From Flavobacterium sp. NRK F7 (lineage in GTDB: Bacteria > Bacteroidota > Bacteroidia > Flavobacteriales > Flavobacteriaceae): 64,000 nucleotides of DNA. The number at the start of each line of letters is the position of its first letter. Positions within the stretch are counted from its first letter, which is position 1. Location of the stretch: NCBI RefSeq assembly GCF_024054195.1, contig NZ_JAMXLB010000001.1, positions 2,849,845-2,913,844 of the forward strand, given 5' to 3'. The translations under genes and the position numbers were made by a program. Below the pieces are notes generated by a model. The model was not told where the DNA came from. It made no database searches and saw only the letters and a list, made by a program, of their open reading frames with translations. Of this stretch, positions 10,985 to 37,036 are shown in pieces.

Positions 10985-11515
10985 ATGGAACAAGAACAAT
11001 TACTTAAAGAATTACTTAGTAAAAGTGATCGATCATTTACCTTGTTATATGACAATTATTCAAAAAGTTTGTATGCTGTCATTTTCAATTTAATAAAAAA
11101 CAGAGAAGAAGCCGAAGATGTGCTTCAAGAAGCTTTTGTTAAAATTTGGAATAATATTGATTCTTATAATGAATCAAAAGGAAGATTATACACTTGGATG
11201 CTAAACATTACCCGCAATACTACCATTGATAAATTGAGATCTAAAGGCTATAATAATAGTCAAAAAAACCATTCTGCAGATAACTTCGTATATATGCTTG
11301 AAGACAATTCGAAGACAGTCAACAAGATAGATGCCATTGGAATAAGTAGGTTTATAAAAAAATTAAAACCGAAGTGTATTCAAATTATTGAATTGCTATT
11401 TTTTCAAGGTTATACACAACAAGAAGCATCTGAAGAATTAGAAATACCTTTAGGAACCGTAAAAACGCAAAACAGAAATTGCATGAACGAATTAAGAACA
11501 ATGATCAATGAATAG
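10985..11515 (+). CDS. ECF-type RNA polymerase sigma factor
   Basis: 176 residues. Region 2 (FTLLYDNYSKSLYAVIF..EDVLQEAFVKIWNNI) and region 4 (KPKCIQIIELLFFQGYTQQEASEELEIPLGTVKT) are clear. A TTG start at 10955 would add ten residues, but the ATG at 10985 fits the usual N terminus. Its last 8 nt overlap the next gene, an anti-sigma factor, in the normal sigma/anti-sigma order. Confidence 0.92.
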   Translation: MEQEQLLKELLSKSDRSFTLLYDNYSKSLYAVIFNLIKNREEAEDVLQEAFVKIWNNIDSYNESKGRLYTWMLNITRNTTIDKLRSKGYNNSQKNHSADNFVYMLEDNSKTVNKIDAIGISRFIKKLKPKCIQIIELLFFQGYTQQEASEELEIPLGTVKTQNRNCMNELRTMINE

Positions 11516-20200: not shown

Positions 20201-20291
20201 GGCGTTCCCACAAGGGGCGGGCTTTTCGTTACAATCTTTTTTAAAAGTGAAGCACTTTAAAAAAGGATTTTCACTGCAATCCCTAACGCAA
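20201..20291. repeat. Intergenic palindromic element (single copy here)
   Basis: A GC-richer block bounded by GCGTT (20202-20206) and AACGC (20285-20289). It contains an internal stem of 16 bp with two mismatches (20234-20249 with 20253-20268, 3-nt loop). Similar blocks with a central run of T/A are, from memory, frequent between genes in flavobacterial genomes. It covers most of the 148-nt gap before the cupin gene. Confidence 0.6.
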
Positions 20292-20326
20292 ACATACAAT
20301 AAGTACAACCTCTTAAATTCATACAC

Positions 20327-24862: not shown

Positions 24863-24970
24863 GGAAAAATTTAGAAGTTAGAAAGGAGAAAAGTGAAGTT
24901 TTTTTATACTTCGTTTTCAGTTGGTCATACGCTCACGCAACAGTAAATCTTTCAAAATGTCCCAATAACT

Positions 24971-25086
24971 TAAAATTTTATAGCACCAACTTAAAATTTT
25001 AGGTCCTTGAGTTAAAGTTTTATATACTTAACTTAAAATTTTATGTTACCCAACCTAAAATTTTAAGGTCTCAAGGTAAAATTTGA
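24971..25086. repeat. Palindrome array 1: six TAAAATTTTA boxes at 21-22 nt spacing
   Basis: Boxes start at 24971, 24992, 25013 (one change), 25034, 25056 and 25077 (last base pair lost). Steps are 21, 21, 21, 22 and 21 nt, two DNA turns, so all boxes face the same side of the helix. It lies 108 nt upstream of the guaB promoter. The rest of the 24863-25172 gap shows no gene. Confidence 0.85.
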
Positions 25087-25172
25087 AGTAATAGCATTCA
25101 AAACTTTTGAATTTGTTGTGCTAGAACATTGGATAAAGATCTTATTTATAGAAAACGGATTGTAGTTAGCCT

Positions 25173-26005: not shown

Positions 26006-26044
26006 AATTTAAGTGAAATTTTATCGAAACATTAAATTTATACT

Positions 26045-26440
26045 TTAGTTTGCCTTTTTCAAAACCCGTGCTAACATAAATTTCATTCCTTTTAGTAGAA
26101 AATAAGAGAAATAACATATAATTATTGTTGCAACATGATATGTCAGACCATAATAGTCAGCACTCAAGAAAATAAAATAGCAAACTAGACCAAAAATTAG
26201 GGCTGTCACAAAACCTAATAAGCTTTGTTTTAAATATTCTTTTACACTCTGATTTTTCTTAATTGTCATTAAAAAAAAGAAGACAGTGTTTAGAATAATT
26301 ATAGATTCAAAACGTGTAAAATAGCCATTATCCTTTCCATAATAGAAACTCATATTATGTGTTCTAATACCGTTGTCAATATATGCAATGATAATAGTTG
26401 TTAAAATTAAGTATAGAATTGCAATAATAATTCTTGTCAT
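26045..26440 (-). CDS. Small four-TM membrane protein
   Basis: 131 residues from ATG at 26440 (MTRIIIAILYLIL). A TTG 15 nt upstream would reach the left edge of palindrome A and is less likely. There are four hydrophobic segments and a basic tail. No family recognised. It sits immediately left of the cassette array and has the same orientation as the cassette genes, but only its 5' side touches a palindrome. Confidence 0.6.
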   Translation of the reverse strand: MTRIIIAILYLILTTIIIAYIDNGIRTHNMSFYYGKDNGYFTRFESIIILNTVFFFLMTIKKNQSVKEYLKQSLLGFVTALIFGLVCYFIFLSADYYGLTYHVATIIICYFSYFLLKGMKFMLARVLKKAN

Positions 26441-26452
26441 TTTAAATTGATT

Positions 26453-26586
26453 CAAGGTGTTGTGCTTGATGAGATTGCAAATTTCGGAACTGATTATTTT
26501 CTGTTAAAGATAAAATTTCTTGCGAAATGTAAACGTGAATTTACTACAAAATTCGCAATCTTGCCAAACGCTTGTTAGCGGTTGCC
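26453..26586. repeat. Palindromic element A (left end of array)
   Basis: Inner stem: AGATTGC at 26472-26478 and GCAATCT at 26555-26561, extended with mismatches. The right arm GTTAGCGGTTGCC (26574-26586) pairs with the arm of element B across the next gene. The left terminus reads CAA instead of AAC, so the outer left arm is degenerate. The interior (~118 nt) is nearly identical to element C. Confidence 0.75.
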
Positions 26587-26593
26587 AATTTTA

Positions 26594-27193
26594 TTAATCA
26601 ATTCCATTTGTTAATAATAAGTAGCCATTATTTTTTGTCAATATAATTGTTGCAGTATCGTTTCCATAATCACCTTCAAAATATTTAAGTTCCTCATCTT
26701 TTGAATATATTTCAACTGCATTTTTCAAAAAGTTAGGTTCAACGTAAAATAATTTCCAATTACTATATAAAGAAAGATATGAAGTTAGATTTTCAACTAT
26801 TGTTTTAGCTTTTTCTTTCTCGATTTCCTTTGAATAAAAACTGTTAAATCGTCCCTTTGTTGTATCTCCAGTGAGCATTGCAGTGAGATATTCATTTTTT
26901 GTATTCTCAATTTCTTTTATTTCTAATTCAATTTTGTTTTTAAGTATACTTCCCTTTCGTATTTTATAAGTTTTAGTTTTATAGTCAAAATCATGCATGT
27001 TGAACCATTCTCTTTCTATGTCTTGGTTAGAAATTTGTCTAATGAACGAGTCTGAGCGAATGAAGTTTAATAAATCTGTTTTGATATTATCAGTTTTTAT
27101 TTCAAATTCCAATAAAAACGTATTGCTGTTTAAAACAGAGTCTACTGAATCTAAAAATGTTTTAATTGGTTTCTGTGATATATCTAATTCCAT
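26594..27193 (-). CDS. Cassette gene 1: unknown ~199-residue soluble protein
   Basis: The ATG at 27193 (MELDISQKPIKTF) is chosen because the longer frame to 27274 reads through palindrome B. Lysine- and glutamate-rich, no signal peptide or membrane segment, no recognised domain. Bounded by GTTAGCGG arms at 26574 and 27210-27218. Confidence 0.6.
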   Translation of the reverse strand: MELDISQKPIKTFLDSVDSVLNSNTFLLEFEIKTDNIKTDLLNFIRSDSFIRQISNQDIEREWFNMHDFDYKTKTYKIRKGSILKNKIELEIKEIENTKNEYLTAMLTGDTTKGRFNSFYSKEIEKEKAKTIVENLTSYLSLYSNWKLFYVEPNFLKNAVEIYSKDEELKYFEGDYGNDTATIILTKNNGYLLLTNGID

Positions 27194-27209
27194 TCGTTTC
27201 CGTTGGGTT

Positions 27210-27350
27210 ACCGCTAACGGTTTGCAGCTTGCCGAAGGCGGGGCTTTGGGAGCACCAAACCTTTCAAGTTGCACTAATGTTTATTCATAGCCGAAAAGTT
27301 TCTGTAACCACGTTCGTCCCGCTTTTGCCAAGGTGCTGTTAGTGGCTGCC
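27210..27350. repeat. Palindromic element B
   Basis: Left arm ACCGCTAAC (27210-27218), right arm GTTAGTGGCTGCC (27338-27350), interior 119 nt. Inner stem: CTTGCCGAAGGCGGG (27228-27242) pairs with CCCGCTTTTGCCAAG (27318-27332), 12 of 15. The two outer arms differ from each other, but each matches its own cassette partner. Confidence 0.8.
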
Positions 27351-27928
27351 AGATTCTTCTCAGTCATTTCTGTTTTATATACTGTCGCTACAACATTGTC
27401 TGGTTTCCAATTTCTCAGTTCGTCTATTTCTGCTTCACTGTCGCACTTGATTAGCAGTCCAGTATTGTTTTTGTCGGGTTGCGATTTTGTTATCCTTTCT
27501 ATGCCAATTATTTGTCTTTGAAATATTGTGCTTAACGCTACAAATTCTATTGTGTCTCCAATTGAAACCAGTCCTTCTGTTATGTAGCCAGCAAAAAAGA
27601 GTCCGCGTCCAGTAATTTTAAAAGTGTCAGCGATTAGATATTTTGCCGTCTCTTGTCGTGCCGTTATTTCGGTGATATATTTTTTAGCAACATTTTCTGC
27701 TTTTTGTCTTGAAATGTCACCTCCAATAAATCTGTCTGTATAATTATTTGAGTCGTCAATTGTAGCTTCGTCTTTTTGCATGTCATAAACTGCCCACCAC
27801 CAATAATCCTCATCCATCCATTCAGCTCGTAACATTAGTCCAGCCCATTTAGCGGTGCAGTCATCCGATAGGTCGCCTGTCCAAGTAATAGGTTGTTTTG
27901 CTAATGTTTTTCTATCGTCTATTGTCAT
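27281..27928 (-). CDS. Cassette gene 2: protein with EF-Tu domain-2-like beta barrel
   Basis: 215 residues. The first ~90 are tryptophan-rich (DEDYWWWAVYDMQKDEATIDDSNNY). Residues about 95-185 (FKITGRGLFFAGYITEGLVSIGDTIEF..) follow the EF-Tu domain 2 pattern, but no GTPase domain is present. The last ~25 codons are read from palindrome B, where the arm does not supply a stop in this frame, so the C terminus is probably a read-through appendage. Function unknown. Confidence 0.7.
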   Translation of the reverse strand: MTIDDRKTLAKQPITWTGDLSDDCTAKWAGLMLRAEWMDEDYWWWAVYDMQKDEATIDDSNNYTDRFIGGDISRQKAENVAKKYITEITARQETAKYLIADTFKITGRGLFFAGYITEGLVSIGDTIEFVALSTIFQRQIIGIERITKSQPDKNNTGLLIKCDSEAEIDELRNWKPDNVVATVYKTEMTEKNLAATNSTLAKAGRTWLQKLFGYE

Positions 27929-27935
27929 GTCCTAC

Positions 27936-28080
27936 TGGTTGCCACTAACGTTCCCATGCATGGCGAGGTTGCGAACTTCGGAACAGATTATTTTCTATTA
28001 AAGATAAAATTTCTTGTGAGAAATTAACGTGTATTTACTACAAAATTCGCAATCTTGCCAAACGCCTGTTAGTGGCTGTT
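27936..28080. repeat. Palindromic element C
   Basis: Left arm GGTTGCCACTAAC ending at 27949, right arm GTTAGTGGCTGTTTTT from 28068, interior 118 nt. Inner stem GGCGAGGTTGCGAA (27962-27975) pairs with TTCGCAATCTTGCC (28046-28059). Over ~107 nt it differs from element A at about a dozen positions. Confidence 0.8.
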
Positions 28081-28659
28081 TTTATTTTCTAAATATTTTT
28101 TCATTTCGACAATTAATATCTGTCTTTCATTCTTATTTAACCAGTTAAAAACTCTTACTTTTGAATATTTATAGTCAAATAAGACTTCTCCAATAGTTAA
28201 GTAAATCATACCTCTGTTATATTCTTTTATCGAGTTTCTATATTCATTAAAAAACTCAAATGGTGTTTTGTTATAGTCATCATCTTGAAATTTATCTCTG
28301 ATGTTTTTTATCTCACTTTTTTTAAATATTTTATCTTTAGTCCAGAATGTACCGCTTTTACTTATTGTCATTTTTTCCTCATCTATTTTTATAATTTCTT
28401 TTCCTCGAATTAACCATAAAAATTTTCTCAAACCAATAATTCCAAATATCGGATGAATAATGAATCCAATTAGAAATAGTTCTAAATTAAATTCTTTTTC
28501 TTTAATTAAAAAAATAAAACCCGAAAAAATGAGAATACTCATCATACCAAAAAAAAGTAAAGGGAATAAACTTTTTCTTGAATTATTTTCTGCATAAAAC
28601 ACTCTATTCTCAGAATAATATTTAAATTTTGGTTTCCCAATAGTAATATCTAATAACAT
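28069..28659 (-). CDS. Cassette gene 3: two-TM protein with PH-like cytoplasmic region
   Basis: 196 residues. Two adjacent membrane segments lie at about 30-95, then a soluble part IIKIDEEKMTISKSGTFWTKDKIFKKSEI that resembles the bacterial PH-like domains of small membrane proteins. The stop codon TAA (28069-28071) lies inside the cassette arm GTTAGTGG, so the arm contributes the last codons Ser-His-stop. No defined function. Confidence 0.65.
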   Translation of the reverse strand: MLLDITIGKPKFKYYSENRVFYAENNSRKSLFPLLFFGMMSILIFSGFIFLIKEKEFNLELFLIGFIIHPIFGIIGLRKFLWLIRGKEIIKIDEEKMTISKSGTFWTKDKIFKKSEIKNIRDKFQDDDYNKTPFEFFNEYRNSIKEYNRGMIYLTIGEVLFDYKYSKVRVFNWLNKNERQILIVEMKKYLENKNSH

Positions 28660-28708
28660 CTTTTAATTTAATTAAAAATCTATTTCTGTATGCTCCGATT
28701 CGGCTAGA

Positions 28709-28857
28709 AAATAGCCACTAACGGTCTCGTATAACCGCAGTTACGGGTTAATATGTGTTAATTTTCGGTTTAGCACAGACGTTAGCAATTCCGAGTGGAT
28801 TCGGACGTAGTCGAATCCGCCGTAATTGCGGTTATACATTGTTGTGCGTAGGTTTTT
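28709..28857. repeat. Palindromic element D
   Basis: Left arm ATAGCCACTAAC ending at 28722, right arm GTTGTGCGTAGG from 28841, interior 118 nt. Stem GTATAACCGCAGTTACGG (28729-28746) pairs with 28820-28837 at 17 of 18 positions. An internal hairpin CGGATTCG/CGAATCCG sits near 28797-28820. The outer arms are clearly unrelated to each other. Confidence 0.85.
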
Positions 28858-29258
28858 CATTCTGCTATTGTCTCCAGCTTTTTATTATTAAAAGTCCAAT
28901 AAATATTTAATCCAAACACAAGAGTTGAAATCAGGCTAATTATTAAAACTTCAATTCCGAATAGGTCGTTTACGATTCCAATTATTAAAGTCAGAATAAA
29001 AATGGCTAAATGAGCAATTGATAAATTTAAGTCAGTTTTTTTTCGCATTAGTGCTACAATTCCGTAACCGATTAAAAAAATCAACCACGAGCCAAAAACT
29101 ATAAAACCGTTAATAATCCATTGATTTGATTGATCAAAAGTCCAGCCAACAGTTTTATTTACTCCTCGTATTTCTTGTCCACTGAAATAATTTCCAATGA
29201 AAAATGTCAGGATTAAAACCCAAAACATTCCTTTTTCAAAAATCCATTTCCAATTCAT
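28857..29258 (-). CDS. Cassette gene 4: small four-TM membrane protein
   Basis: 133 residues with four hydrophobic segments. The N terminus MNWKWIFEKGMFWVL and short loops resemble 2TM/4TM proteins of unknown role. Start and stop are within about 15 nt of the two matching arms (GTTGTGC.TA.GTT), leaving almost no room for a promoter. Confidence 0.65.
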   Translation of the reverse strand: MNWKWIFEKGMFWVLILTFFIGNYFSGQEIRGVNKTVGWTFDQSNQWIINGFIVFGSWLIFLIGYGIVALMRKKTDLNLSIAHLAIFILTLIIGIVNDLFGIEVLIISLISTLVFGLNIYWTFNNKKLETIAE

Positions 29259-29270
29259 ATCGTTTTTCTC

Positions 29271-29419
29271 AACTTATGCACAACGGTTTGGCGCTTGGCG
29301 AAGAAGCGGATTTAGAAGCACTAAAATTTATGCCAGAACTGAACTTGATACGAAGTACAAAGCTTCATTTATGCACTGAACCCGCCATTTTGCCAAACTG
29401 CTGTTATGTGGCGTTTTTC
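29271..29419. repeat. Palindromic element E
   Basis: Left arm AACTTATGCACAAC (29271-29284), right arm GTTATGTGGCG from 29403, interior 118 nt. Stem GTTTGGC (29286-29292) pairs with GCCAAAC (29392-29398), with further paired GC-rich blocks inside. Confidence 0.8.
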
Positions 29420-30957
29420 TGTCCACCGTCAATTTTGTATAATATTATTCCAATTAATGCTCCGCTTAAAAGTCCGCCAATATGTGCTGCGTTGTCAATG
29501 CCACCTGTTAAGCCCCAAAGTAAATTTATACCAACATAAATTCCAATCATCATTAGTATTCCTTTTTTACCACCTTTGGGAAATGCGTTAGTTAAAAGTA
29601 GTCCAAGAATTGCACCGTAAAGTCCAAAAATTGCACCTGATGCACCAACACTTATTGTGTTAGGATACCACCAAATACTTGCAAGGCTTCCGCAAAGTCC
29701 GGATAAAATATACAAGATAAAATAATTTTTCCGACCGAGTAATGGTTCTACAAAAATGGCTGCTATTACAAGTCCTGAAATGTTTAGAAACAGATGCATA
29801 ATACCACCGTGTAAAAACATACTTGTCAATAATCGCCACCATTCGCCACCAGTTGTTTCAAATCGTCTATTTGCACCCCATTGAAGTAATTCCATTCCGT
29901 TTGGTGATATGATGTGAATACCAGAAAAAACCATTAGTAAAAAGACAAGAATATTTAGGTCTAAAATTATTGAAGTCGCAAAATGGTCTCCTTTTGGAAC
30001 AAGGTAATTTAGCATATCAACTAAATCGTCTTGCTTTGGTTTTTTACCTGCTAAAAATCTTTTCCTTTCAGTTTCGCTATAACCTGGCCAAATTAAAGCA
30101 AACAACAAAACGCTAAGTCCAATACCAAACGAACCGAATATCCAAACAAATTTATTTCCGTTTCTATCTTCATATTTTTCTTTAATTGGTTCTAAAATAA
30201 TGAAACTTTCGTTGGTTGGTTGGTTAGTTCTTGCTTCTATTGCTTTCAAATAATTTTGTCTGTCGTCCGATGTTGGTTTCCTTTCAAAATGGTCTAATGA
30301 ATGAAATTCATACTTATTCATTTTATCAATGCACTCATCGTAAAATGCTTGATACTTTTTCTCCTTTTCATCGCTACTAATTTTATTACTTATCTGTTCT
30401 TTAAATTTTACGCCATACCAATATTTTGGAATGTCATTAATTTTTTCCGAAGTGTCTTTAAGTATAGGGGTAACGAAAAAAATGTCGAAATTTAAGTATT
30501 GGTTATATTTTCCGCTTTGTCTGAAGTCTGTGTATGTGCCACCGTAATAATTAGCAACAGAAAAATTTGTTAACTCATAGTAACGTGATTTTTCTACTTT
30601 TTCTATGTCACTAATTGTCGATAATTTTTGAAGTCTGCCAGTTGCTGTTGTTAAGTATCCTTGTGAAACAAATAAGATTGCAGTTATAATAAGCCAAGCA
30701 ATCATTTGAAAACCAAATCTTCCCTTGTCGTTGTCTTTAAAAGTAAGAATTCTAAAACGTTGTCTTAACCAAAGTGTAATTGGTATCCAAGGAAATATTA
30801 GAGGAAGCCATAAAACCCAAATTTCTTCTTTGATGTCAATGATTGAGAATTGTAAGCAAAAAAGCCATCTAATAAATCCAAGTCCGAAAACTGTCCCTAA
30901 TGTTATAGCTAAAAATGTCGGAAGAATGTGTTTAAGTTTTGCAATATATGTTTCCAA
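29404..30957 (-). CDS. Cassette gene 5: long rhomboid-family intramembrane protease
   Basis: 517 residues. Two membrane segments and a ~170-residue extracytoplasmic region precede a further segment and a C-terminal rhomboid core with HGGIMHLFLNISGL, catalytic Ser in GASGAIFGLYG and catalytic His in DNAAHIGGLLSG. The core is complete. The stop codon TAA lies inside the arm GTTATGTGG at 29404-29406. It differs from the short housekeeping-like rhomboid at 1465-2106. Substrate unknown. Confidence 0.88.
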   Translation of the reverse strand: METYIAKLKHILPTFLAITLGTVFGLGFIRWLFCLQFSIIDIKEEIWVLWLPLIFPWIPITLWLRQRFRILTFKDNDKGRFGFQMIAWLIITAILFVSQGYLTTATGRLQKLSTISDIEKVEKSRYYELTNFSVANYYGGTYTDFRQSGKYNQYLNFDIFFVTPILKDTSEKINDIPKYWYGVKFKEQISNKISSDEKEKKYQAFYDECIDKMNKYEFHSLDHFERKPTSDDRQNYLKAIEARTNQPTNESFIILEPIKEKYEDRNGNKFVWIFGSFGIGLSVLLFALIWPGYSETERKRFLAGKKPKQDDLVDMLNYLVPKGDHFATSIILDLNILVFLLMVFSGIHIISPNGMELLQWGANRRFETTGGEWWRLLTSMFLHGGIMHLFLNISGLVIAAIFVEPLLGRKNYFILYILSGLCGSLASIWWYPNTISVGASGAIFGLYGAILGLLLTNAFPKGGKKGILMMIGIYVGINLLWGLTGGIDNAAHIGGLLSGALIGIILYKIDGGQKNAT

Positions 30958-30989
30958 TGTTCTGTCGTTGTTGTTTGTTGGGTCGTCCT

Positions 30990-31141
30990 AAAATGGCATA
31001 TAACGTTCTGTGGCTTGCTCTCAGTGGCGTTGCACCAGCACCAAGCCATTCCAAAAATAAACAAAACTTAGAAAATTCGGAGAATTTTCGGAATGAACCT
31101 GAACAAGCCATTTTTTTTAACTGCTGTTGTGTGCTGTTTTT
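30990..31141. repeat. Palindromic element F
   Basis: Left arm AAAATGGCATATAAC (30990-31004), right arm GTTGTGTGCTGTTTTT from 31126, interior 121 nt. Stem TGGCTTG (31011-31017) pairs with CAAGCCA (31104-31110). Internal hairpin GAAAATTC/GAATTTTC at 31071-31089. Confidence 0.8.
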
Positions 31142-31165
31142 ATATTCGTTTTTTACTACCATCCT

Positions 31166-31924
31166 TCAAATTTCGTAGTTTCTGTTTTTTGTTTTTACTA
31201 CTTTATTGTTGATTAGTTTTTTATATGTAGTTTTTACAAAATTTGTTGTGTCTATAATTTCTCTTTCAATTAGTTCTGTATATTTTATTTTCCCAATCTT
31301 GTCAAAATGAATAATACTATTTACATTATAACCAAAACCATTTTTCGCATAAGACGAAAGCGTTTTTTCTACTTTATTGACTTCTAATTCATAACCCGAA
31401 AGTTCTTTGTTTAATTCAAAAACCTTCTTTTTAGGATTAAAAATGTATGCCCAATAAAACATTCCTGCACTGCCAGAAGGTTCTTTGTCAAAAATCTTAA
31501 AATCCTTAAATCCGTCAAAATTCAAATCTTCTTTGCTATCAATAGTAAAACTTTCAAAATGAAAGTTGCTAAAATTGTGTTGATAATACGAGTCATTTGA
31601 ACTTAAATTACGTGAATTATTTAATAATGTTTTGTTTTTATTTTTTAGTTCCAAGATTCCTTCACCATATTCATTTCCTTCGTAAACTATAAAAGTGAGT
31701 TTCCAATAACATTTTATGTTATTTATTATAAATGGTTCACTAGTTTTAATAAGTGTGTCTTGTTTTTTATAAATTATTTCTGTTTTATTATATTTCTGTT
31801 TTGACTGATTGGTGCTGTCTTTTTCAGTTTTTTGTACAACAAGATTTTCCGTTACTTTAGGATTTTTACAATTTGCTAAAAGCAAAATAATGAATATGTA
31901 AATGAATTTTTTCAAAGGTTTCAA
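31166..31924 (-). CDS. Cassette gene 6b: lipoprotein with DxNxDGxxD motif
   Basis: 252 residues. Lipobox LLLANC|KNPK. Near the middle, KEDLNFDGFKDFKIFDKEPSGSAGMFYWAYIFNPKKKVF matches the pattern of XAC2610/FG-GAP-like Bacteroidota proteins, with a calcium-type DxNxDG loop. It is separated by 3 nt from the upstream lipoprotein gene in the same cassette; this is the only two-gene unit of the array. Confidence 0.7.
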   Translation of the reverse strand: MKPLKKFIYIFIILLLANCKNPKVTENLVVQKTEKDSTNQSKQKYNKTEIIYKKQDTLIKTSEPFIINNIKCYWKLTFIVYEGNEYGEGILELKNKNKTLLNNSRNLSSNDSYYQHNFSNFHFESFTIDSKEDLNFDGFKDFKIFDKEPSGSAGMFYWAYIFNPKKKVFELNKELSGYELEVNKVEKTLSSYAKNGFGYNVNSIIHFDKIGKIKYTELIEREIIDTTNFVKTTYKKLINNKVVKTKNRNYEI

Positions 31925-31927
31925 AGG

Positions 31928-32380
31928 TTAAGTTCCGTAATTTTCGTTATCGCATTTTTTTACTTTCCGTTTTGCTATTTTTTCAAATTTACCAGTTTTT
32001 CTGTTCGCACGCCAAGCTTTTATAATTTTAGTGTAAAATTCGACATTGTTATCTGTATCTCTTACAAGAGCAATAATTTCTACATTAACACCATTATTTG
32101 TGTAGCAATATTCTGTTAATTTGTTTTCTTTCAATTCTTTCTTATCAATCTCTAAAATATCAATTATGATTTTTTTTGTATTTTCAATTTTGAAAAATAA
32201 TATGAATATTTTAGTTTCAGAATTAGAAAATGCAATACCATAATCAGTATCGAGCTTACCTTTATTTAATAGAAATCCACCTTCACTTTTTATTTCTTGA
32301 CCAATCCAATGTTTTCTGTTGCTTTGCTGTGAATAGCAAGAAGAAACAAGAAGTACAAATATGTATAAAAAATTTTTCAT
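31928..32380 (-). CDS. Cassette gene 6a: small lipoprotein
   Basis: 150 residues. Signal peptide with probable lipobox LLVSSC|YSQQ. The mature part is lysine-rich and beta-prone, with no recognised family. It shares a cassette with the lipoprotein at 31166-31924, suggesting the two act together and perhaps move together. Confidence 0.65.
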   Translation of the reverse strand: MKNFLYIFVLLVSSCYSQQSNRKHWIGQEIKSEGGFLLNKGKLDTDYGIAFSNSETKIFILFFKIENTKKIIIDILEIDKKELKENKLTEYCYTNNGVNVEIIALVRDTDNNVEFYTKIIKAWRANRKTGKFEKIAKRKVKKCDNENYGT

Positions 32381-32420
32381 AAAATCATTGCTAAAGGTTG
32401 AATTTTAAAAGGTTCGTCAT

Positions 32421-32569
32421 AAAATAGCACACAACGGTCTCGGCTATGAGTAGTTGCGTGGGTTAGCACTTAACTTTGCAAGTACTCACCAAGCTGAAAA
32501 TCCGCTAGGATTTTCAGAAGAAGGCGAGAACAAGCAATTACTTATAGCCATTGTTGTACGCAATATTTT
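32421..32569. repeat. Palindromic element G
   Basis: Left arm AAAATAGCACACAAC (32421-32435), right arm GTTGTACGCAATAT from 32553, interior 117 nt. Stem GGCTATGAGTAGTTGC (32442-32457) pairs with 32534-32549 at 14 of 16. A perfect internal hairpin CTGAAAATCC/GGATTTTCAG lies at 32494-32517. Confidence 0.85.
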
Positions 32570-32573
32570 ATTA

Positions 32574-33404
32574 TTATTTATGATGATATTCAACTTCGTC
32601 TGGTGTTAATTCAGAACGTCCTTTGATTTTATAGTTAGTTTTCCAAACTCGTAATTCTTGCACAGGAATTGGATTTCCATTGTCGATATAAAAAGGAACA
32701 AAATAAAATGGTTCATCATTTTTCTGTTGTTCTCTAAATTGATGGAAAAACATTCCTTGTTGCATTTTTAAATTTTTCCAAAAAACCATTTGCATAACCA
32801 TTGATTGTTGCTGTTTCCCATATTTCTCAAGTTGCATTGATTTTTGATAATCCGAAAACATTGGGTCAAGCCATTTCCTGTCAGGGTTAGCATATAGATA
32901 AGTCGAATAACTTACGTCACTTTCTATTATGAATGAAATACAAATATTATTCTCTTCGTCCACGTCATTATCTTGATTCCAAGAACGAATGTAATTGAAG
33001 AATTTAATAGCATAATCTTTATCAGCATATGCAGGACCAAAATAATTCAAATATCCATCGTGGTTTTCAATTTCTGGATTTAATAAAAAATATCCATTGG
33101 TTAGCCATTGGTCATATTCAATTTCAAAGTCAGGGAATGGTTGTAAAATCATCACAGAATATTCGAATAGAGTTCGTTCAAATAACTGTTCTATCCCGAA
33201 TAGTGCGAAAGTCATTATTATTCCGCCCCAATAAGGTAGAGTTAGAAAACTCGTTGCTATTCCAATTACAGTTAAAATTCGTAAAATCCATTTGACTGGT
33301 TTTTCAAATTTCTCGTGTACAATTAGTTTCGGATAATACTTTTTCCACTGTAGTCTAACAAGACTATTTGAGTCTATTTTCCAATTTCCAACTCTAAATT
33401 TCAT
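32574..33404 (-). CDS. Cassette gene 7: membrane-associated protein of unknown function
   Basis: 276 residues. One or two membrane segments lie at about 40-80 (WILRILTVIGIATSFLTL, GGIIMTFALFGI), then a soluble domain rich in aromatic residues. No family is recognised. The arms on both sides share GTTGTACGCAATAT perfectly over 14 bp, the best-preserved pair in the array, which may mean a recent arrival. Confidence 0.65.
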   Translation of the reverse strand: MKFRVGNWKIDSNSLVRLQWKKYYPKLIVHEKFEKPVKWILRILTVIGIATSFLTLPYWGGIIMTFALFGIEQLFERTLFEYSVMILQPFPDFEIEYDQWLTNGYFLLNPEIENHDGYLNYFGPAYADKDYAIKFFNYIRSWNQDNDVDEENNICISFIIESDVSYSTYLYANPDRKWLDPMFSDYQKSMQLEKYGKQQQSMVMQMVFWKNLKMQQGMFFHQFREQQKNDEPFYFVPFYIDNGNPIPVQELRVWKTNYKIKGRSELTPDEVEYHHK

Positions 33405-33415
33405 AGGTCTTGTTC

Positions 33416-33567
33416 ATATTGCGTACAACGTTCCGCGGCTTGGCGCAGTAGCGACTGCGTGGAACGATTATTTCTTGCTAAGATAAGATTTTCCAGCGGA
33501 AAATCGAACATTGTTGTTTATTTTAAAAGTAGCTATTGAGCCAAACCGCTGTTGTAGGTGGTTTTTA
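33416..33567. repeat. Palindromic element H
   Basis: Left arm ATATTGCGTACAAC (33416-33429), right arm GTTGTAGGTGG from 33551, interior 121 nt. Stem GCGGCTTGGC (33435-33444) pairs with GCCAAACCGC (33540-33549) at 9 of 10. Internal hairpin GATTTTCC/GGAAAATC at 33487-33505. Confidence 0.8.
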
Positions 33568-33900
33568 TTTTTTTTTGTTAAAAGTTATGCTTATTTCCGT
33601 TTTGTCTGGATAAAAAGTTTGTTTTATTTCTTTTGCGTCATCTTTCGCAGCATTAAGAAATTCTTCCATCTGCTCTTTTTGATGCTTAATAAATTCTTCT
33701 TTTTTTTCAGACCATGCTGATGAATTTACAACTAGTTCTTTTGCATCGGATAGAGAGCAATTTTGGTTAACTCTAACATAAACTATGCACTCCAAAATGC
33801 TACATTTTAGTGATTTCAGTTCAGCTATTCTGTTTTCTAATGCAACTTTAGTAAGTTTGGATTCTTTTTCTGCTAAATTTCTTATTTCTTCTTCAGTCAT
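33565..33900 (-). CDS. Cassette gene 8: small soluble protein
   Basis: 111 residues, charged, probably helical at both ends (MTEEEIRNLAEKESKLTKVALENRIAEL in outline), with two cysteines in the centre. No signal peptide. Unknown family. It is bounded within 10-15 nt by the GTTGTAGGT arms. Confidence 0.6.
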   Translation of the reverse strand: MTEEEIRNLAEKESKLTKVALENRIAELKSLKCSILECIVYVRVNQNCSLSDAKELVVNSSAWSEKKEEFIKHQKEQMEEFLNAAKDDAKEIKQTFYPDKTEISITFNKKK

Positions 33901-33904
33901 CTTT

Positions 33905-33974
33905 AAAATTACCTACAACTTGTTGTATATGTCTGACGAAGTCAGACATATACAACAACCATTTGTTAGATAGG
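33905..33974. repeat. Palindromic element I (right end of array, short form)
   Basis: Left arm ACCTACAAC (33911-33919) matches the right arm of H. The interior is only 45 nt and contains a perfect 18-bp stem (33920-33937 with 33941-33958) around a GAA loop. The right arm is GTTAGATAGG from 33965, with no gene or convincing partner beyond. Confidence 0.85.
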
Positions 33975-34192
33975 TCTGAAAAACAGTCAGACTTTTTTTG
34001 ATATCCAAAAATAACAATTATTGGTTACAAATCATCAAAAGGGCTTTATATAAAAACAAGACTTCTTCTTACCTAACCCTTTCATAAACTACCTAATCTT
34101 CAAAACAGGTAATTCTACCCTAGTTCCAAAACCCAATTTAACGGAACTTAGCTTCAATAAAATTACTTACAACAAACAGTTAATTTCAAAAC

Positions 34193-36664: not shown

Positions 36665-36829
36665 ATTGTTATTGAGAATTAATTGGTATTTACAAAGAGA
36701 AGCATTCGTAAAGAAACCTTCTGAACACTTCCTTTCAAAAATAAATAAAACCCCAAAAATAAAAATCAGAATTATCAGAAGTTTAACAGATAAAAAAACA
36801 ACAAACCCAGCTATACCAAGGCAAGAACC

Positions 36830-36989
36830 TAAAATTTTAAGTCTTTAGGGTAAAATTTTACGTCTACTAACCTAAAATTTTAGGTCTCTAGGGTAAAATT
36901 TTACGTCCACCAACCTAAAATTTTACGTCTCTGGGGTAAAATTTTACGTCTACCTACGTAAAATTTTAGGTTCTTGCGTTAAAATTTTA
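36830..36989. repeat. Palindrome array 2: eight TAAAATTTTA boxes, alternating 21/22-nt spacing
   Basis: Perfect boxes start at 36830, 36851, 36873, 36894, 36916, 36937, 36959 and 36980, with steps 21, 22, 21, 22, 21, 22, 21. The links alternate between two types (GTCTCTAGGG-like and CGTCTACTAACC-like), so the true unit is about 43 nt with two boxes. It fills the centre of the gene-free stretch 36665-37036. Nothing else is visible there. Confidence 0.9.
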
Positions 36990-37036
36990 GGTTATGGAAC
37001 GTAAAAAGGAATATCGTACTAATTGGGAAATACTTG

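Follow-up and report, generated by a model that had tools for sequence, protein, structure and literature searches.

A window of 64,000 nt from the genome of Flavobacterium sp. NRK F7 (C1:2849845-2913844 of a 3.75-Mb, 30-contig assembly) contains an array of eight consecutive units that face the same way (26453-33974; coordinates are positions in this window unless another contig or locus is named). Read on the coding strand, each unit begins with GTT and ends with AAC, and its two ends form an inverted repeat. Seven palindromes of 117-121 nt lie between the units. An eighth (26453-26573) follows the last unit and has no GTT to pair with at its far end, in keeping with its place behind the last cassette of an array. 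At the 5' end of the array, a compact perfect hairpin (33920-33964) abuts the first unit and forms part of a leader of about 75 nt. An earlier, sequence-only reading did not mention this hairpin. It had described the units, their coordinates, their cores and the common direction of their genes, all of which are as claimed, and had proposed an integron-like or analogous circle-based cassette system with its recombinase outside the window. The data described below support that proposal. With a probability of about 0.86, the array consists of successive mobile cassettes that belong to an integron-like system and are moved by a site-specific tyrosine recombinase encoded 332 kb away. The parts of the array are listed here in coding order, followed by the adjoining DNA.

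33920-33990, minus strand: attI-like leader, consisting of the hairpin 33920-33964 and a conserved stretch 33965-33990; its GTT junction with the first cassette is at 33919/33920
33551-33919, minus strand: cassette 8, first behind the leader; open reading frame (ORF) 33565-33900, 111 aa; ends GTTGTAGGT..ACCTACAAC; no Pfam or PADLOC match
33430-33550, minus strand: attC-like hairpin body of cassette 8, 121 nt; 94 bits with model R1 (training-set site)
32553-33429, minus strand: cassette 7; ORF 32574-33404, 276 aa; in-register ends of 14 nt
32436-32552, minus strand: attC-like body of cassette 7, 117 nt; training site of model R1
31126-32435, minus strand: cassette 6; two ORFs, 31166-31924 and 31928-32380; a relative lies at another site on contig C21 of the sister species G424
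31005-31125, minus strand: attC-like body of cassette 6, 121 nt; its final 30-35 nt or so differ in G424
29403-31004, minus strand: cassette 5; rhomboid-family protein 29404-30957, 517 aa (Pfam PF01694, E 3.3e-32)
29285-29402, minus strand: attC-like body of cassette 5, 118 nt; training site of model R1
28841-29284, minus strand: cassette 4; ORF 28857-29258, 133 aa; in-register ends
28723-28840, minus strand: attC-like body of cassette 4, 118 nt; training site of model R1
28068-28722, minus strand: cassette 3; ORF 28069-28659, 196 aa; in-register ends
27950-28067, minus strand: attC-like body of cassette 3, 118 nt; training site of model R1
27338-27949, minus strand: cassette 2; the called ORF 27281-27928 crosses the AAC edge into the body; in-register ends
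27219-27337, minus strand: attC-like body of cassette 2, 119 nt; training site of model R1
26574-27218, minus strand: cassette 1, last of the array; called ORF 26594-27274, with the start codon of the gene likely inside the cassette; in-register ends
26453-26573, minus strand: attC-like body of the last cassette; no GTT at the far end; 73 bits with model R1, outside its training set
26024-26452, minus strand: further variable DNA with ORF 26045-26455; unmatched at the same site in G424, with the conserved flank running from 26023

Among ten window proteins compared with Pfam and PADLOC, the rhomboid protein alone scored above a cut-off, and PADLOC returned no match. No Rfam family reached its gathering score over the array.

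The arms of the array match in register with the genes. Summed over the seven letters behind GTT, the within-unit match is 50 of 56, compared with a mean of 26.4 over all 40320 possible re-pairings. Two of the 40320 pairings reach 50, the true one and, as read from the cores, the one in which units 2 and 3 are swapped. Perfect runs from GTT extend over 9, 9, 10, 7, 5, 10, 14 and 9 nt within the units versus 5, 9, 3, 3, 3, 5 and 6 nt across the palindromes, whose two arms are mostly unmatched. For other genomes, an unbiased statistic was used, the longest perfect run that any candidate GTT/AAC pair of a gap yields, determined for true and mismatched gaps alike. In the first 21 Flavobacteriaceae loci, a run of at least 5 occurs in 63% of 154 consecutive gaps versus 3.8% of 1828 mismatched gaps from the same arrays, and the same-gap (palindrome) mean is 2.0 (null, 1.9). 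The corresponding values are 37 of 58 gaps (64%) versus 8 of 332 (2.4%) in a named set of 47 loci (L071-L117), which shares Algibacter onchidii with the first set (L082 repeats L057), and 35 of 67 versus 11 of 555 in a second Flavobacteriaceae set of 20 loci. At least two in-register cassettes are present at 13 of the 21 first-set loci, 7 of the 47 named loci, 6 of the 20 in the second set and 1 of 20 in a class-wide set; some of the other loci end at a contig edge, and others do not. Both parts of the original claim, that arms match per gene and that the two arms of one palindrome generally differ, are borne out in the window, and in many genomes matching is far better within units than between them. 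Scanning simply for AAC...GTT pairs whose inner arms are complementary proved too noisy, and the in-register statistic and a covariance model were used instead.

To derive the properties of the site, 279 cassettes whose ends match in register over 5 nt or more were used, 209 of which have a neighboring body. It is important to note that these cassettes were selected by their run, so that the end match itself is no evidence here; position 11 onward and the flanks lie outside the selection. Across the 209 cassettes, the 5' end follows the approximate consensus GTT(R)(K)NNN(Y)(M)A and then TTT. The reverse-complemented 3' end is much like it except at position 11, where the 5' end has A in 100% and the 3' end G in 88%, so that, on folding, ten pairs are followed by a C-A mismatch. 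GTT is preceded by C in 99%, and AAC is followed by A in 99%, with T as the seventh letter after it in 100%. Body length has a median of 118 nt, with the bulk at 117-119 nt and minor classes near 54 and 183 nt, and a site (body plus ten letters per side) measures about 137 nt. The attC core RYYYAAC/GTTRRRY fits 9 of the 209 cassette 5' ends. Thus the view that the core is not GTTRRRY stands, and the longer match that had been proposed is refined to GTT plus about seven letters, followed by the A/G mismatch.

Folding of the body is supported by covariation. Within the inner stem of 18 sites, 87.7% of cells are paired, compared with 59.8% after shuffling and at most 41.6% in slid alignments (score 0.680 versus 0.195), and all ten pairs show compensatory changes. 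When 60 of 122 bodies were sampled and folded in the form they would have in a circle, the mean z score was -6.5, with 57 of 60 below -3; the outer arm formed, with 0.97 of its ten pairs on average. Unpaired spacers of 3 and 5 nt were read from the sequence logo. At locus L065 (genome G040), the 21 bodies have a median identity of 0.94; a few differ, one of them, judged by eye, being of a type like window 28723-28840.

The covariance model was built from 18 sites, 7 from the window and 11 from a second locus, L016. At a threshold of E <=0.001, it recovered all eight window sites, the eighth of which was outside the training set, and a total of 46 sites across the genome, which form at least five arrays among the matches listed:

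Window array: 8 sites
Recombinase-linked array: 3218092-3225332 (locus L016)
Third array: 3648658-3659275, 10 sites in L306
Fourth array: 2091130-2103030, 11 sites in L307
Fifth array: 2591686-2594832, 4 sites in L308
Lone site: 1638473

The third and fifth arrays have two stretches in common, L306 14269-14844 with L308 4995-5570 (95.7%) and L306 3450-3671 with L308 5484-5706 (97.8%). One of them begins beside a cassette GTT, the other stops at AAC followed by AGC, and the DNA around them differs.

The best tyrosine recombinase match to the IntI model in this genome is a protein of 353 aa with a TTG start (C1:3215937-3216998). Directly behind it lies the same-direction small-gene array of L016, 332 kb from the window array. 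Both further units elsewhere in the genome and a tyrosine recombinase at one end of an array, for which the sequence-only reading had suggested searching, are therefore present. A leader of about 75 nt directly follows the recombinase stop codon (L016 11033-11101), and a near-identical leader starts the window array. Its 21-nt core occurs at exactly two places in the genome (<=3 mismatches), both of them array starts. A putative attI analogue is thus present, in the form of a leader behind the recombinase with a junction at GTT and, as described below, a duplicated cassette located there. Among 92 recombinase loci, 43 have an in-register first cassette that begins within 260 nt of the recombinase stop; a further 10 have less than 700 nt of downstream sequence, and 4 lack a full ORF.

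Two kinds of comparison show that the cassettes have moved. Within the genome, a 1157-nt sequence occurs in two copies of 100% identity, one immediately after the recombinase leader (L016 11102-12258), the other within the third array (L306 9011-10167). On the left, the copies are preceded by AACAA|GTT in the leader and by GAGAACC|GTT in a hairpin body, without a shared letter left of GTT. On the right, the identity of the two copies spans the hairpin body up to ACC|GTTA, beyond which the next cassettes are unlike. These edges define the mobile unit as GTT, gene, AAC and body, with one copy seated in the leader junction.

The second comparison involves two sister species, G424 and G461. For matches beyond flanks and leader, it covered the window and recombinase arrays of the present genome, contigs C20 and C6 and 14 of the 20.9 kb of contig C21 of G424, and two G461 arrays; contigs C1, C2, C9 and C26 of G424 also have sites and lie outside this comparison. 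At the window site, the flanks of G424 are 96.5%, 90.3% and 96.7% identical and stop at 26023 and 33965, and between them repeat bodies alone match. In G461, the comparison was made on the right side, where the flank has 85% identity starting at 33907. The leader at this site is kept in G461; in G424 it is kept from 33965 on only. At the recombinase locus, where the leader GTT is at 11102, identity is 95.6% in G424 (to 11122) and 91.7% in G461 (to 11104), so that homology stops at the leader GTT or no more than about 20 nt from it, with other cassettes beyond. Both species therefore have the same flanks and other cassettes, and the leader junctions and the 1157-nt duplicate place the switch between presence and absence at GTT, in line with what the sequence-only reading had proposed.

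Beyond flanks and leader, the compared sister arrays contain two matches of at least 190 nt. In one, cassette 6 and most of its body recur at 98.7-98.9% identity on contig C21 of G424, at another site, with a start at C|GTT to within two letters. The other match is body-sized (195 nt, 86%). More distantly, rhomboid cassette 5 and its body have a counterpart in G244 at 81%; the matches in G542 and G325 stop just beyond the cassette AAC. G345, G407 and G224 have only the first gene of cassette 6 in common with the window, beginning at GTT or at most 4 nt before it.

The array recombinase is not IntI, judging from sequence models and a tree. No protein of this genome exceeds the 265-bit cut-off of the IntI model TIGR02249, and three array recombinases score 203-204 bits. 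About 19 residues take the place of model positions 178-237, which correspond to the IntI-specific insertion (patch III region), whereas the best IntI rows of the phylum sample match TIGR02249 continuously over about 1-315. The top model for all three proteins is NF040815, of XerA type (220.9, 234.8 and 223.5 bits; cut-off 220), which NCBI describes as 'site-specific tyrosine recombinase/integron integrase'. In the tree, 16 same-phylum IntI proteins (placed from 29 usable of 30 fetched loci) form one clade with support of 99/100 that excludes the array recombinases; the order among array recombinases and Xer outgroups is unresolved in this tree, and its bootstrap had not fully settled. The predicted fold (14 sequences; predicted local distance difference test score [pLDDT] 82.9, predicted template modeling score [pTM] 0.54) has a small N-terminal alpha/beta domain before the usual two domains, and its top PDB matches are XerA 5hxy (2.7e-18) and IntI4 2a3v (3.0e-18). 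In alignment A3, the full extra N-terminal domain of about 80-100 residues is present in 16 of 20 rows. K, H, R, H and Y are invariant in all 20 rows and the first Arg is present in 19, missing in L050; we take these to be the catalytic residues of a tyrosine recombinase.

A simple model would account for these features. One cassette would consist of GTT, gene or genes and AAC plus a hairpin body of about 118 nt, and the tyrosine recombinase would excise and insert it at C|GTT. In the free circle, both cassette ends would flank the hairpin and pair over GTT and about seven letters, forming a recombinase-binding arm. The recombinase would bind this end arm and the inner stem and link the hairpin, at its C|GTT, to the leader or a different site; once linked to the leader in this manner, the cassette gene would point away from it. 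After insertion, each hairpin would close on the first arm of the cassette that follows. The combination of ends that pair in the circle and a hairpin closed by a neighbor would make the arms match per gene and not per palindrome. Arrays without an adjoining recombinase gene, such as the window array, could be served in trans. The cassettes most likely were inserted at the attI-like leader by the 353-aa recombinase. We infer the role of the recombinase as the enzyme, the folded single strand as its substrate and the circle as the intermediate.

Several observations weigh against reading the array as mobile cassettes of such a system. The in-register signal is weaker in the class-wide set (20 loci; 12 of 43 gaps versus 11 of 211). 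Distant recombinases (L118-L150, 33 loci) gave 0 of 8 versus 0 of 14, a weak negative control given 8 testable gaps. Across the five arrays of the present genome, a run of at least 5 is found in 16 of 45 consecutive gaps (null, 13 of 479), from which it follows that several units are decayed or mis-delimited. Of the 92 recombinase loci, 19 are without an in-register cassette, and at 16 the first one lies beyond 260 nt. Bodies are not always inherited whole: the last 30-35 nt or so of the cassette 6 body are different in G424, and bodies from six older homologous pairs resemble each other only a little more than random ones do, as far as random values are available. Such partial inheritance suggests exchange by homologous recombination or fast drift. 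Finally, the rhomboid gene of cassette 5 is present in G372 and G332 without matched cassette edges. The idea that the body does not travel with its gene was considered and set aside: the six pairs are ambiguous, and cassette 6 in G424 and the 1157-nt duplicate show that a body can accompany its upstream gene.

Alternatively, the system could be a canonical integron with a divergent IntI and divergent attC sites, the window array being an ordinary cluster of attC sites without an integron integrase (CALIN). The two share their architecture and the C before GTT, the site length of about 137 nt is within attC norms (57-142 nt according to the accessible text of PMC2727003), IntI4 is among the best structural matches, and the IntI insertion is described in the accessible part of PMC8138268 as 'not fully conserved' in an integron-like subgroup. 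We nevertheless consider this alternative improbable in view of the TIGR02249 scores and the replaced positions, the exclusion of the array recombinases from the same-phylum IntI clade, the scarcity of GTTRRRY ends, the 3- and 5-nt spacers and a genome without IntI above cut-off. Somewhat less probable again is the movement of units by homologous recombination between dispersed repeats, with the recombinase as a bystander. The bodies are similar repeats, and both the chimeric G424 body and the near-identical L065 bodies fit exchange inside bodies; such exchange would not be expected to leave 10-nt ends in register with the gene, and the 1157-nt duplicate starts exactly at GTT, with leader on the left of one copy and body on the left of the other, and ends at the next GTT plus one letter.

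In pdif modules, genes lie between inverted short XerC/XerD sites, and the units might likewise be moved by host XerC/XerD at paired sites. Host Xer-type recombinases are present (300- and 302-aa frames) and inverted sites flank the genes, yet the repeated site here is a covarying hairpin of about 120 nt, one per gene, not two short core sites, and a dedicated recombinase precedes arrays in many genomes; on these grounds we hold this mechanism to be very improbable. AT-rich genomes commonly have intergenic hairpins, and the palindromes might be chance structures, terminators or REP-like (repetitive extragenic palindromic) hairpins between unrelated genes. That reading is refuted by the shuffled-pairing tests, and in-register matching in several sets, exact duplication and other cassettes between conserved sister flanks likewise speak against it, leaving it a negligible probability.

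The resemblance to chromosomal integrons, such as the Vibrio superintegrons, is extensive. Common features are small genes in a single direction, mostly of unknown function, with a hairpin site behind each; ends paired per cassette; insertion at a leader beside a tyrosine recombinase gene; a C|GTT crossover edge; and, in some arrays such as L065, near-uniform bodies, as is also the case for Vibrio superintegron repeats. In contrast to those systems, the recombinase is XerA-like, below the IntI cut-off, without the IntI insertion and mostly with an N-terminal extension; the core is GTT plus seven mostly variable letters and the A/G mismatch, not GTTRRRY; and the recombinase gene reads toward the array. 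In Treponema chromosomal integrons, intI reads toward attI and the site is GTTAGGT, and these differ from the present system in having IntI and GTTRRRY-type sites (accessible text of PMC3607928). CALINs, clusters of attC sites without integron integrase in the accessible text of PMC9024848, resemble the window array in having sites and no adjoining recombinase gene; the window array differs in retaining a 5' attI-like leader and in the type of its sites. XerA recombinases (NF040815; PDB 5hxy, 4a8e) are the closest curated family and provide the top sequence and fold matches. According to the accessible part of PMC8138268, Xer proteins, including XerA, mainly resolve chromosome dimers, whereas the recombinases described here precede cassette arrays and in most cases are extended at the N terminus.

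The extra domain is the defining feature of IntI in integron texts (accessible parts of PMC9024848, PMC9668308 and PMC2426708). The accessible part of PMC8138268 calls the insertion essential for integron function and not fully conserved in the integron-like subgroup, and relatives lacking the patch may therefore already have been seen there. For Bacteroidetes, the IntegronFinder 2.0 report, as far as accessible, names one complete integron, in Salinibacter ruber M1 (PMC9024848). No such system was found in the accessible parts of the literature searched (including PMC9024848, PMC8618304, PMC2426708, PMC8138268, PMC9668308, PMC8352920, PMC3607928 and PMC2727003), a search that excluded subscription papers and bioRxiv, where it may be in print.

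A profile built from 20 recombinases has matches at E <=1e-60 in 154 of the 295 Bacteroidia genomes, a count of the recombinase family and not of arrays. Among the bearers known by name are Winogradskyella, Seonamhaeicola, Algibacter, Aquiflexum, Rufibacter and Pontibacter. IntI above cut-off is found in 105 of 395 genomes of the phylum sample, and of the 108 genomes with an IntI-model match at 1e-50, one belongs to the same class as the present genome and none to its family. The system works like an integron yet is outside the IntI family, and in Flavobacteria and some of their relatives, small genes appear to be acquired and exchanged as integron-like cassettes by means of another recombinase and other landing sites. 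More broadly, it could represent a second class of integron with a XerA-type recombinase, in which hairpin-specific cassette recombination evolved independently of IntI and the N-terminal domain may take over the role of the IntI insertion in binding the folded strand. In that case, Flavobacteriaceae and parts of Cytophagales would capture genes mainly through this platform, which would have escaped notice because IntI serves as the definition of integrons; we regard the chances of this wider proposal as evenly balanced. Integron surveys rest on IntI and attC models, and the usual integron definition would miss these cassettes. A recombinase that lacks the IntI insertion yet serves hairpin cassettes would mean that this insertion is not the sole route to recombining folded sites, and that a major environmental phylum holds a further large reservoir of unknown cassette genes.

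Expression of the cassettes may begin in the leader, as suggested by the motif TANNTTTG, presumably the Bacteroidota -7 motif, which occurs in 16 of 43 leaders, compared with 1 of 43 on the reverse strand and 2.7 +/- 1.5 after shuffling. A promoter in each body is unsupported, with TANNTTTG in 12 of 142 bodies forward and 18 reverse (shuffled, 10.7). The looser TANNTTWG is enriched, with 55 occurrences forward and 34 reverse (shuffled, 16.1), 31 of the 55 coming from three arrays (L065, L066 and L232).

Recombinase relatives also occur in contigs labeled as archaeal, Spirochaetota or Peregrinibacteria metagenome-assembled genomes (L098, L101, L115 and L116), through transfer or binning error, and G100 has eight scattered rows of a shorter related recombinase (304-aa frame), perhaps a transposon enzyme. 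Elsewhere in the window, AT-rich tandem-like repeats with units around AAAATTTTA lie at 24966-25089 and 36818-36994 and recur near the array site in the sister genomes, and a Flavo-1 RNA family match (59.8 bits) lies at 20211-20294 on the minus strand.

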